Assembly: GCF_001618955.1 (NCBI RefSeq)
Contig: NZ_LVYV01000002.1
Coordinates: 62,001 to 126,000, forward strand
Origin: Tardiphaga robiniae
Lineage (GTDB): Bacteria; Pseudomonadota; Alphaproteobacteria; Rhizobiales; Xanthobacteraceae
Direction: 5' to 3'
Length of the DNA stretch: 64,000 bases
A program made the translations under genes and the position numbers. Positions within the stretch are counted from its first letter, which is position 1. Each line of letters opens with the position of its first letter. The notes beneath the pieces were generated by a model, which saw only the letters and a program-made list of their open reading frames with translations, searched no databases and was not told the DNA's origin. This document shows, one piece after another, positions 5,471 through 59,978 of this stretch.

Positions 5471-5614
5471 CTCCCTCGCCCCGCGCTTGCGGGGAGAGGG
5501 CGGGGTGAGGGGCTCTTTCGATCCGCAATGTTGTCGTTGATGAGAGGACTGTGCCATGCCCCTCACCCGACCGACTTCGCCAGTCGACCTCTCCCCGCGC
5601 AGAGCGGGGAGAGG
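5471..5614. repeat. Paired REP-like palindromes, gene-less copy of the element at 58768-59262
   Basis: The left half (5471-5513) contains CCCTCGCCCCGCG...GCGGGGAGAGGG and ends GGGTGAGGGGC. The right half (5558-5614) begins with the inverse, GCCCCTCACCC, and ends with the hairpin CTCTCCCCGC...GCGGGGAGAGG. About 44 bp separate the halves. The element fills the gap between two convergent genes and could act as a bidirectional terminator. The same left and right ends bracket the DUF559 gene at 58.8-59.3 kb. Confidence 0.8.
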
Positions 5615-56799: not shown

Positions 56800-58755
56800 A
56801 TGTCTGATTCCGATCCCGCGCTGAACGACGAGACAGCTCCCAATCCGGCCCATATCGAAGGCGGTACGCTGTTCGGGACGCTTGCGCATCTGTGGCCCTA
56901 TATCTGGCCGGGCGACCGCGACGACCTGAAGATGCGCGTCGTCTGGTCAATGCTGCTACTGCTGGTCGCCAAGGCGGCCACGCTGACGGTGCCGTTCACC
57001 TTTAAATGGGCGATCGATGCGCTGACCGGTGCCGATACGGCTCCCGTCCAGTCCTCGAACTGGACGTTGTGGCTGATCGCATCGCCGGTCGCCATGACCG
57101 TCAGCTACGGCGCAATCCGCGTGCTGATGGCGATTTTCACGCAATGGCGCGACGGCATCTTCGCCAAAGTGGCGATGCATGCGGTGCGCAAGCTCGCATA
57201 TCTCACCTTCGTTCATATGCACGAGCTGTCGCTGCGCTTTCATCTGGAGCGCAAGACCGGGGGCCTGACGCGTGTGCTCGAACGCGGCCGCGCTGGCATC
57301 GAAGTCATCGTGCGCATGGTCATCCTGCAACTGGTGCCGACCATCGTCGAGCTGTTGCTGGTGATGGGTGTGCTGCTCTGGCAGTTCGACTGGCGCTATG
57401 TGCTGGTCGTGGCGATCACCGTGGTCGTCTACATGTACTATACGTATCTGGCGACCGAGTGGCGCATCGCCATCCGCCGCAACATGAACGAGTCCGATAC
57501 CGAGGCGAATACCAAGGCGATCGACTCGCTGCTGAACTATGAGACGGTCAAATATTTCAGCGCCGAAACGCGCGAGGCCGAACGCTATGACAAGACCGTC
57601 GAGCGTTTCGAGCGCGCCAGTGTCAAGACCTATACGTCGCTGGCCGTGCTCAATACCGGGCAGGCGATCATCTTCACGCTCGGTCTGACATCGACGATGC
57701 TGATGTGCGCGGTCGGCGTGCGCAACGGTACCCACACGGTGGGCGATTTCGTCATGATCAACGCCATGATGATCCAGCTCTACCAGCCGCTGAATTTCAT
57801 GGGCATGGTGTATCGCGAGATCAAGCAGGCGATCATCGACATCGAGAAGATGTTCGGTGTCCTGAACCGCAATCCGGAAGTGAAGGATATTCCAGGAGCC
57901 AGGCCGCTGCTGGTGACGTCAGGTGCCGTGCGCTTCGACGATGTACGTTTCGCCTATGACCCGGAGCGGCCGATCCTGAAGGGGCTCTCCTTCGAGGTGC
58001 CGGCCGGTAAGACCGTCGCCATCGTCGGCCCGTCGGGCGCCGGCAAGTCGACGATCTCGCGGCTGCTGTTCCGGCTGTACGATGTATCGGGTGGCACGAT
58101 CTCTATCGATGGCCAGAACATTCGCAATGTCACGCAGGCCTCGCTGCGCCAGTCGATCGGCATGGTCCCGCAGGACACCGTGCTGTTCAACGACACCATC
58201 CGCTACAACATCCGCTATGGCCGCTGGGACGCGACGGACGAAGAGGTCGAGGAAGCCGCCCGGATGGCGCAGATCGACTCGTTCATCCGGATGTCGCCGA
58301 AGGGCTACGAGACCGAAGTGGGCGAGCGCGGCCTGAAACTCTCTGGCGGCGAGAAGCAGCGCGTGGCCATTGCGCGCACCGTGCTGAAGGGCCCGCCGAT
58401 CCTGCTGCTCGACGAGGCCACATCTGCGCTCGACAGCCATACCGAGCAGGAGATCCAGGACGCGCTGGAGAAGGTCTCGCAGGGCCGCACCTCGCTGGTG
58501 ATCGCGCATCGACTGTCCACCATCGTCGGCGCCGACGAGATCATCGTGCTCGATCAGGGCCGGATTGCCGAGCGCGGCACCCATGGCCAGTTGCTGGCCG
58601 CAGGCGGTCTTTACGCCAGCATGTGGAACCGGCAGCGTGAGGCCCAGGAGGCCCGTGAGCGGCTGGCCCAGATCGGCGACGATGCCATCGCCCCCAATCG
58701 CACCCCGCCGCCGGTCGATGACGACCGGCTGATGACGCCTGACGCGGCGGAGTGA
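56800..58755 (+). CDS. Atm1/HMT1-type ABC exporter (fused membrane and ATPase domains)
   Basis: 651 residues. The N-terminal transmembrane domain (about 40-345) includes the family-typical LRFHLERKTGGLTRVLERG. The ATPase domain has Walker A GPSGAGKS, signature LSGGEKQRVAIART, Walker B ILLLDEATSALD and the H-loop IAHRLS. Alphaproteobacterial Atm1 proteins export glutathione-linked metals or sulfur species across the inner membrane. The DUF559/repeat unit lies just after its stop. Confidence 0.94.
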   Translation: MSDSDPALNDETAPNPAHIEGGTLFGTLAHLWPYIWPGDRDDLKMRVVWSMLLLLVAKAATLTVPFTFKWAIDALTGADTAPVQSSNWTLWLIASPVAMTVSYGAIRVLMAIFTQWRDGIFAKVAMHAVRKLAYLTFVHMHELSLRFHLERKTGGLTRVLERGRAGIEVIVRMVILQLVPTIVELLLVMGVLLWQFDWRYVLVVAITVVVYMYYTYLATEWRIAIRRNMNESDTEANTKAIDSLLNYETVKYFSAETREAERYDKTVERFERASVKTYTSLAVLNTGQAIIFTLGLTSTMLMCAVGVRNGTHTVGDFVMINAMMIQLYQPLNFMGMVYREIKQAIIDIEKMFGVLNRNPEVKDIPGARPLLVTSGAVRFDDVRFAYDPERPILKGLSFEVPAGKTVAIVGPSGAGKSTISRLLFRLYDVSGGTISIDGQNIRNVTQASLRQSIGMVPQDTVLFNDTIRYNIRYGRWDATDEEVEEAARMAQIDSFIRMSPKGYETEVGERGLKLSGGEKQRVAIARTVLKGPPILLLDEATSALDSHTEQEIQDALEKVSQGRTSLVIAHRLSTIVGADEIIVLDQGRIAERGTHGQLLAAGGLYASMWNRQREAQEARERLAQIGDDAIAPNRTPPPVDDDRLMTPDAAE

Positions 58756-58767
58756 TTCTTTCTCTTT

Positions 58768-58850
58768 CCCTCGCCCCCGAGCGCGGCGAAGCTGCGCTTG
58801 GCGGGAGAGGGTGGATCGCCCGCGCTAGCGGGCGAGACGGGAGAGGGGGC
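58768..58850. repeat. Left half of repeat bracketing the DUF559 gene
   Basis: Begins CCCTCGCCCC, includes GCTTGGCGGGAGAGGG and a CGCCCGCGCTAGCGGGCG hairpin, and ends with GGGAGAGGGGGC, which doubles as the ribosome site of the nuclease ATG at 58851. The start matches the left half of the gene-less element at 5471. Confidence 0.8.
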
Positions 58851-59273
58851 ATGGCGAGGGATCAGGCCAAAGCTTTGCGCGCCAAGATGACGGATGCCGA
58901 GCGGCAGCTCTGGTATCGGCTGCGCGCCCACCGATTTCAGAGCTTCAAATTCAAACGCCAGGTGCCGATTGGGCGATACATCGTTGATTTCGTCTGCCTT
59001 GAACGGCGCCTCGTCATTGAGGTCGATGGCGGGCAGCATGCTGACAGCAAACCGGATCAAACCCGAGACCAATGGCTTCAACAACAAGGGTTTCGCGTTC
59101 TGCGGTTCTGGAATAATGAGGTGTTCAACAACACGGATGGAGTGTTTGAGGTGATCGTTGAACATCTTGGCCATTCCGCGCCAGCCCCCTCTCCCGGCAC
59201 GCCGCTTCGCGTCGAGCCACCCTCTCCCGCCTGCGCAGCTTCGCTGCTTGGGGGAGAGGGGAAGAAAGAATAG
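58851..59273 (+). CDS. DUF559 (Vsr-like, PD-(D/E)xK) endonuclease-domain protein
   Basis: 140 residues. The DUF559 fold residues are present: Glu17 (TDAERQLW), Asp46 (RYIVDFVC), Glu57 and Asp59 (LVIEVDGGQH) and the RFWNNEV strand. Its nearest described relatives are the Vsr mismatch nickases and the endonuclease domains of DUF559 proteins. The last 35 or so residues are encoded by the right-hand repeat and look like translated repeat (SAPAPSPGTPLRVEPP). The gene starts and ends within palindromic repeats. The activity is not established. Confidence 0.9.
   Translation: MARDQAKALRAKMTDAERQLWYRLRAHRFQSFKFKRQVPIGRYIVDFVCLERRLVIEVDGGQHADSKPDQTRDQWLQQQGFRVLRFWNNEVFNNTDGVFEVIVEHLGHSAPAPSPGTPLRVEPPSPACAASLLGGEGKKE
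59184..59262. repeat. Right half of repeat bracketing the DUF559 gene
   Basis: Begins GCCCCCTCTCCCGGC, continues through CTTCGCGTCGA and CCCTCTCCCGC, and ends CTGCTTGGGGGAGAGGGG. The order of blocks (GCCCCYC, CTTCGC, TCGA, CTCTCCC, GGGGAGAGG) is the same as in the right half at 5558-5614. It encodes the C-terminal tail of the nuclease. Confidence 0.78.
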
Positions 59274-59279
59274 AGCTTC

Positions 59280-59978
59280 ATGTCCATCGCAAATTCCATC
59301 CGTGGCCAGATCCCGCCGATCCACAAGGAAGGCTATCCGTTCATTGGCGCCTTTGCGCTGGCGAGCCTGGTGCTGTTCTGGATCTGGACGCCGCTCGGAT
59401 GGATCGGCACGGTCCTGACCGTCTGGTGTGCGCTGTTCTTCCGCGATCCGGTGCGCGTGACCCCGACCCGCGAGGGTGTCGTGGTGTCGCCCGCCGACGG
59501 GAAAGTGTCGATGGTGCAGCCGGTGCTGCCGCCGGCCGAACTCGGCCTCGGCGACCAGCCGCTGCTGCGCATCTCGGTGTTCATGAGTGTCTTCAACGTT
59601 CACGTAAACCGCAGCCCGGTGGCTGGCCGGATCGAGCGCATTGCCTATCGGCCGGGCAAGTTCATCAATGCCGAGCTGGACAAGGCCAGCGAGGACAACG
59701 AGCGCAATTCGCTGGTGATTTCGACCCCCGGCGGCCGGATCGGCGTGGTGCAGATCGCCGGCCTCGTGGCGCGCCGGATCGTGTCTTTCGTGCGCGAGGG
59801 CCAGACTCTGAGCGCCGGCGAGCGCTTCGGCCTGATCCGTTTCGGCTCCCGGCTGGATATCTATCTGCCGGAAGGCAGCAAGGCGCTGGTGGCCGTGGGG
59901 CAGACCGCGATTGCCGGTGAGACCGTGCTGGCCGATTTCAGGATCGGTGATGGCGGCCGCACCTATCGCGTCGATTAA
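59280..59978 (+). CDS. psd: Phosphatidylserine decarboxylase proenzyme
   Basis: 232 residues. An N-terminal membrane helix (about 22-45), SPADGKV (70-76), [11 protein letters not shown] (101-111) and the self-cleavage site Gly189-Ser190 in [11 protein letters not shown] define the short alphaproteobacterial enzyme. Ser190 becomes the pyruvoyl group. It makes phosphatidylethanolamine. pssA, the preceding step, follows 118 bp downstream. Confidence 0.95.

Follow-up and report, generated by a model that had tools for sequence, protein, structure and literature searches.

In a stretch of DNA of 64,000 nucleotides (the window), we found a DUF559 nuclease gene framed by two mutually inverted copies of the PIT/TM repeat. 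The repeat itself was already known; new is DUF559 as its partner gene. The gene and its ends very likely constitute a real gene-plus-ends unit, and the reading we favor, to which we assign a probability of roughly 0.6, is that it represents a selfish element, compact and of REP/RAYT type, driven by an unrelated, Vsr-like DUF559 nuclease.

The unit lies between an Atm1-type ABC transporter gene (stop codon at 58753–58755) and psd (start at 59280), with the DUF559 gene bracketed by inverted repeats at 58768–58850 (left) and 59185–59262 (right) (Table 1). Read from the outside towards the gene, each end consists of an outer hairpin formed by a pyrimidine and a purine arm, the trinucleotide TGG, a variable inner hairpin and a gene-proximal third purine arm. 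The end arms are 19–38 nt long and 71–95% complementary across the gene. Folded as single strands, the left end had a z score of −3.9 (equaled by none of 200 shuffles) and the right end one of −2.2 (equaled by 6 of 200). A preliminary description of this DNA had proposed that the left repeat provides the ribosome site of the nuclease and that the right repeat encodes its C-terminal tail, and both proposals were borne out: the left third purine arm, GGGAGAGGGGG, immediately precedes the start codon (ATG at 58851), and translation of the right repeat yields the C-terminal tail APSPGTPLRVEPPSPACAASLLGGEGKKE. The same placement of the third purine arm directly before the gene was seen at 36 of the 71 flanked DUF559 loci described below. 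At further right ends (L013, L065, L074 and L075, among others) tails such as PNPLP.., TPNPSPGGRGE and PHPNPLPEREREKE in DUF559 or neighboring predicted proteins are likewise translated PIT arms.

Table 1. Coordinates of the DUF559 unit and of a gene-less repeat pair in the window
Feature	Position	Strand	Basis and remarks
Gene-less repeat pair, sister subclass T1b (ACCTCTCCCCGC..GCGGGGAGAGGT)	5471..5614		Sequence; not a direct derivative of the ends of the window gene
Outer pyrimidine flank TTCTTTCTCTTT, left end	58756..58767	+	Matched in inverted orientation by AAGAAAGAA at the right end; gene-less copies have these outer tracts too
Left outer hairpin	58768..58811	+	Arm 1 CCCTCGCCC at 58768-58776, arm 2 GGGAGAGGG at 58803-58811; sequence and fold
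Left inner variable hairpin TCGCCCGC-GCTA-GCGGGCGA	58816..58835	+	Sequence and fold
Left third purine arm GGGAGAGGGGG; doubles as Shine-Dalgarno-like tract of the DUF559 gene	58839..58849	+	Sequence
DUF559 (PF04480) Vsr-like nuclease gene, 140 aa	58851..59273	+	Profile, conservation, model, dN/dS
Right third arm (inverted), within the DUF559 coding frame	59185..59195	-	Sequence
Right inner variable hairpin	59196..59218	-	Sequence and fold
Right outer hairpin CCCTCTCCC..GGGAGAGGGG; codes for the C-terminal tail	59220..59261	-	Sequence and fold
Right outer purine flank AAGAAAGAA	59262..59270	-	Sequence

Both ends display a pyrimidine arm, a complementary purine arm and a mirror third purine arm, which identifies them as the PIT/TM intrastrand triplex repeat with the motif CCCTCTCCC-n-GGGAGAGGG-n-GGGTGAGGG. 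This motif (TMECO) was described by Holder et al. in 2015, often as inverted pairs, in genomes including that of E. coli K-12, and triplex formation in vitro was demonstrated for the E. coli motif; the repeats occur in more than 260 bacterial genomes, their origin was left open, and no mobility gene was found near the motif (PMC4666352). The window repeats had no match in Rfam. Across DUF559 loci, a hairpin of pyrimidine and purine arms was present at 233 of 260 ends tested. After deduplication (40 different purine arms), the third arm was the mirror image of the hairpin purine arm in 107 cases and its direct repeat in 13, with 52 ties, though the loci are mutually related, so that these counts are not independent events; the mean mirror match was 0.837, as against 0.740 (sd 0.004) for shuffled arms. 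Since intrastrand triplexes depend on mirror repeats, the capacity to form the triplex fold seems to have been kept while the arm sequence changed, and this covariation suggests, at the level of sequence, that the triplex-capable fold itself is the conserved feature. At several loci from Nitrospirota, Omnitrophota and similar groups (L264, L310, L328, L336 and L337), the left and right arms are shifted relative to one another (CCCTCCCC versus CCCCTCCC), and both ends have a mirror third arm of their own.

To quantify the association of DUF559 genes with such ends, we aligned the left flank of each gene to the reverse complement of its right flank, with a score of at least 16 as the threshold. 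In a first sample of 99 DUF559 loci, taken from 18 genomes of the genus together with others sampled across the phylum (mainly Pseudomonadota), 71 had matching inverted ends, compared with 2 of 177 displaced windows in those loci. The left and right ends of one locus reached the threshold in 72% of cases, as against 11% when left ends were paired with right ends of other loci. The preliminary description had considered that the repeats might be no likelier at DUF559 genes than elsewhere, which these counts contradict; it had also considered a nuclease conserved without repeats, and this does apply to the roughly 28% of the first sample in which no ends were detectable, although the repeats accompany DUF559 genes far more often than random ones. 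Among the loci with no detected ends is a rhizobial DUF559 clade (L056, L061, L070 and L071), and a long fusion protein with a DUF559 domain in the window's own genome (L004) has no PIT-type repeats. A second set, which consisted of the best matches from a single-protein scan with the window DUF559 and is thus biased towards its relatives, gave 60 of 70 further loci with scores of at least 16 (59 PIT-type); of the controls, 5 of 124 (~4%) reached that score. This set covers about ten phyla, with named records from Alpha-, Beta-, Gamma- and Deltaproteobacteria, Nitrospirota, Omnitrophota, Verrucomicrobia, Chlamydiae, Chloroflexi, Sumerlaeota and others. Because the pairing recurs across many phyla, DUF559 enzymes are probably the partner of the PIT/TM repeats that had long been missing and that spreads them.

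Stand-alone GIY-YIG genes of the same genus (L227–L256) provided a comparison. Inverted repeats flanked 16 of 25 of these loci and 0 of 100 displaced windows, but the repeats were of the CGTC type or the TTCGAGACGG..ATGAGGG type. In a strict PIT test within the genus, 29 of 33 flanked DUF559 loci scored as PIT, compared with 0 of 16 flanked GIY-YIG loci (p ~1e-9), and the four DUF559 loci that failed appeared PIT-like by eye. Of the 18 genomes in the genus, 17 lacked the RAYT family (PF01797) and one gave a borderline match. Together, the different repeat types of DUF559 and GIY-YIG genes and the near absence of RAYTs indicate that PIT framing is not general to small genes or nucleases. It is therefore very improbable, and largely refuted, that repeats and small genes merely accumulate at the same intergenic spots without being functionally linked: the same spacers do turn over between repeat families, but displaced windows reach the threshold at a rate of just 1–4%, and GIY-YIG genes in the same genomes carry other repeats and never PIT. 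Still harder to credit is that a RAYT tyrosine transposase moves the PIT repeats with DUF559 as a passenger; the layout does resemble that of REP/RAYT pairs, yet the scarcity of PF01797 in the genus contradicts such a mobilizer. The likeness to REP/RAYT pairs with an unrelated nuclease, drawn in the preliminary description, holds as an analogy. CGTC-type REPs of Alphaproteobacteria are said to have no dedicated transposase (PMC3733652), and the GIY-YIG nuclease is a candidate partner for them.

The class of repeat follows the class of enzyme. Within one genome, different DUF559 subfamilies are framed by different repeat classes (CCCTCTCCC at L001, CCCTTCCCC at L002, and CCCTCCCCC at L003 and the remnant L005), and related DUF559 proteins at unrelated loci keep their class, as T3 does at L003, L018, L019 and L032. 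At non-orthologous loci, the median similarity of the ends rose from 0.25 to 0.48 at protein identities above 0.65. The remnant, at ~1450–1620 of L005 (G000 C1:183575), is a decayed unit of the third class beside a gltD-like gene; another genome (G007) has an intact copy of the unit there (L019).

The repeats also occur in pairs with no gene between them. The genome from which the window derives (G000) contains 110 CCTCTCCC..GGGAGAGG hairpins, compared with 24 for the reversed pattern, a difference which together with the flank pairing excludes chance; at least 11 pairs spaced 94–166 bp apart were counted by eye among about 50 listed, so that dispersed gene-less inverted pairs, a hallmark of REP/RAYT systems, are present here. 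Gene-less counterparts of the window gene's own ends include C1:137454-137604, C1:538405-538559, C1:541719-541907 and C2:244438-244613, the first two of which resemble the window unit in their arms, in how the inner hairpin is laid out and in their outer TTCTTTC/GAAAGAA tracts, with a short spacer replacing the gene. Within the window, the gene-less element at 5471–5614 (fold z −6.6) has the block order of the unit's ends, as had been noted in the preliminary description, but rather than the non-autonomous derivative of the window unit proposed there it represents the sister subclass T1b, found around other DUF559 genes (L012, L015, L025 and L026). In two related genomes the corresponding spacer carries a CGTC-type REP. 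The related genome G015 has unrelated REP-type palindrome pairs at the spots of both 5471–5614 (CGTC-type) and G000 C2:244425-244615, and G017 has a REP-type palindrome pair at the former spot; one repeat family thus seems to be exchanged for another at a given site. Genomes that possess a T1a DUF559 gene have modestly more copies of the T1a repeats (p 0.013, without phylogenetic correction), and gene-less copies are also found in three genomes with no obvious cognate DUF559 gene (G003, G011 and G001).

The protein encoded by the unit is a clear DUF559 member in a profile search (PF04480, 142.8 bits, E 4.5e-42, gathering cut-off 20.6). Eleven columns were invariant over 53 DUF559 sequences, among them E17, D46, E57, D59 and H63. 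An AlphaFold model of the window protein (pLDDT 89.7) matched a DUF559 structure (3HRL, Z 16.3) as well as the homing endonuclease I-Bth0305I (Z 11.1) and, at Z 9.4, Vsr; the predicted structural match combined with the conserved catalytic residues places the protein among the Vsr/EDxHD nucleases. In twelve DUF559 pairs dN/dS was 0.08–0.20 (0.16–0.17 against the closest relatives of the window protein), indicating that the protein has been kept functional. We rejected its assignment as a Vsr mismatch-repair enzyme proper (NCBIfam vsr, 17 bits against a cut-off of 97.85), a role in defense (PADLOC matches were weak and partial) and carriage by phages (just 3 weak or moderate relatives among viral contigs). 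The open-licence papers on DUF559, as far as their titles, abstracts and inspected passages show, describe no link to repeats, and we found no report in the literature of DUF559 proteins cutting repeat DNA. The single relative that has been assayed, the Caulobacter crescentus DUF559 protein VsrA, was interpreted as a mismatch-repair enzyme and proposed to work in very-short-patch repair; it elicits an SOS response and is genotoxic when cytosine methylation is missing (PMC12907096), which suggests that DUF559 proteins can damage DNA in vivo. The main functional rival to our reading is a host enzyme of very-short-patch-like repair, the repeats being regulatory or incidental. VsrA, the purifying selection and the Vsr-like fold all fit such an enzyme, but we consider it quite unlikely, as it leaves unexplained the inverted paired ends, the class matching, the covariation of the mirror arm and the patchy presence and absence of the unit.

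The Atm1–psd interval itself is polymorphic. The whole unit is present there in five genomes, and a truncated one in a further genome (G012). The other genomes, including G014, have a repeat-free spacer of 44–53 bp, with sequence common to all but the most divergent; this spacer is the ancestral empty allele. Filled alleles belong to three separate lineages on the trees of both flanking genes, where supported branches require a minimum of three changes. Either species have exchanged alleles here, or the spot has received the unit on more than one occasion. The filled allele replaces about 50 bp of the old spacer, and thus simple excision could not restore the empty one. No sampled unit exceeds 81% DNA identity to that of G000, which is below the identity of the flanking genes; there is no recent donor for it among the sampled genomes, and no recent jump of a unit was caught among the genomes compared. 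The target-site duplications sought at the suggestion of the preliminary description were not seen at Atm1–psd, at the gene-less sites compared between G000 and G015 or G017, and at the polymorphic E. coli pairs inspected. The idea of a compact mobile unit with clean presence and absence thus survives in part: units are present or absent as wholes, but about 50 bp are replaced in place of a clean insertion. A classical transposon or insertion sequence was rejected, there being neither target-site duplications nor a clean empty site.

An element that spreads like a homing endonuclease gene would account for some of this pattern. Its nuclease would cut gene-less repeats or a fixed site in the empty allele, into which homologous recombination would then copy the filled one. 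Consistent with such allelic spread, the closest characterized fold beyond DUF559 itself is that of I-Bth0305I, and filled alleles occupy the same spot in three distant lineages while empty ones retain the ancestral spacer. However, the empty alleles are repeat-free, which rules out cutting at the repeats in them, one repeat class occurs at several unrelated loci (T3 at the four named above), and the window's own genome alone has more than 100 gene-less hairpins. We therefore regard homing-like spread as unlikely.

In E. coli, the DUF559 gene ycjD (protein YcjD, PRK09767) shares with the window unit its protein family and a C-terminus that reads into a PIT arm, after which PIT/TM element no. 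9 follows; it differs in that its left end is not recognizable. The ycjD region was complete in 3333 of 5426 E. coli genomes and was not found complete in about 2,000. We rejected it as a case of clean presence and absence, as the three ycjD-less alleles examined hold an RND efflux operon in that place (between fabI and sapF, L139–L141, together with TetR). Gene-less PIT pairs are polymorphic among E. coli at several sites. At one site (alx–sstT, L221) the alternative allele has ~420 bp of a different GC-rich palindromic sequence instead of a PIT pair.

Returning to the selfish-element reading, we infer binding, cutting and copying by DUF559 from features that can be read in the sequences: framing, class matching, mirror-arm covariation, presence and absence of whole units, gene-less copies, the active site and purifying selection. 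Of these, the layout, the specific link of DUF559 to its repeats and the gain or loss of complete units have strong support. Counting against the reading are the failure to find target-site duplications, the replacement of the old spacer in filled alleles, the lack of a recent jump or of reported repeat cutting, the modest copy-number correlation, the gene-less copies in genomes with no obvious cognate gene, and the DUF559 loci with no detectable ends. The nuclease would recognize the hairpin and third arm of the triplex-capable ends and would cut or nick there; host repair or recombination may then copy the whole unit, or gene-less end pairs, to other intergenic sites or into an empty allele. 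That the nuclease acts on its ends is likely; that it also spreads them is somewhat less so, though still probable. A broader proposal, for which we see even odds, is that REP-like repeats have several unrelated cognate nucleases, with PIT/TM repeats served by a Vsr-like DUF559 enzyme that recognizes a triplex-capable fold and CGTC REPs by stand-alone GIY-YIG enzymes. If true, at least three enzyme families, RAYTs being just one of them, would have independently turned short palindromes into intragenomic replicators. A cognate nuclease between PIT/TM ends would moreover explain the origin of these repeats, give a role to DUF559, a very widespread family of unknown function, and show that REP-type replicators evolved repeatedly, with enzymes unrelated to one another.

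Among known systems, the unit would by analogy work like REP/RAYT elements and resemble homing endonucleases in its fold. With REP/REPIN–RAYT (TnpA-REP) systems it shares a single small nuclease gene within inverted palindromic repeats, many gene-less inverted pairs dispersed in the genome, and a repeat class that follows the enzyme lineage. It is not a member of that group because the defining HUH tyrosine transposase (Y1_Tnp) is absent; the framed gene is DUF559, with a PD-(D/E)XK/EDxHD Vsr-like fold, and its ends lack the GTAG tag and have a mirror-repeat third arm. Vsr-like (EDxHD) homing endonucleases such as I-Bth0305I are similar in fold and in probable catalytic residues, whereas the DUF559 unit has no intron or split target gene, has paired repeat ends and occupies many loci. 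The CGTC-tagged REPs (PMC3733652) are likewise palindromic repeats of Alphaproteobacteria with no known transposase, but they form a different repeat family and in this genus frame GIY-YIG genes, not DUF559. Finally, the motif of Holder et al. (PMC4666352) is the same repeat, often arranged in inverted pairs; as published it had no attached gene or mobility function, whereas here DUF559 genes lie between its copies and the arm sequence varies with the DUF559 subfamily.
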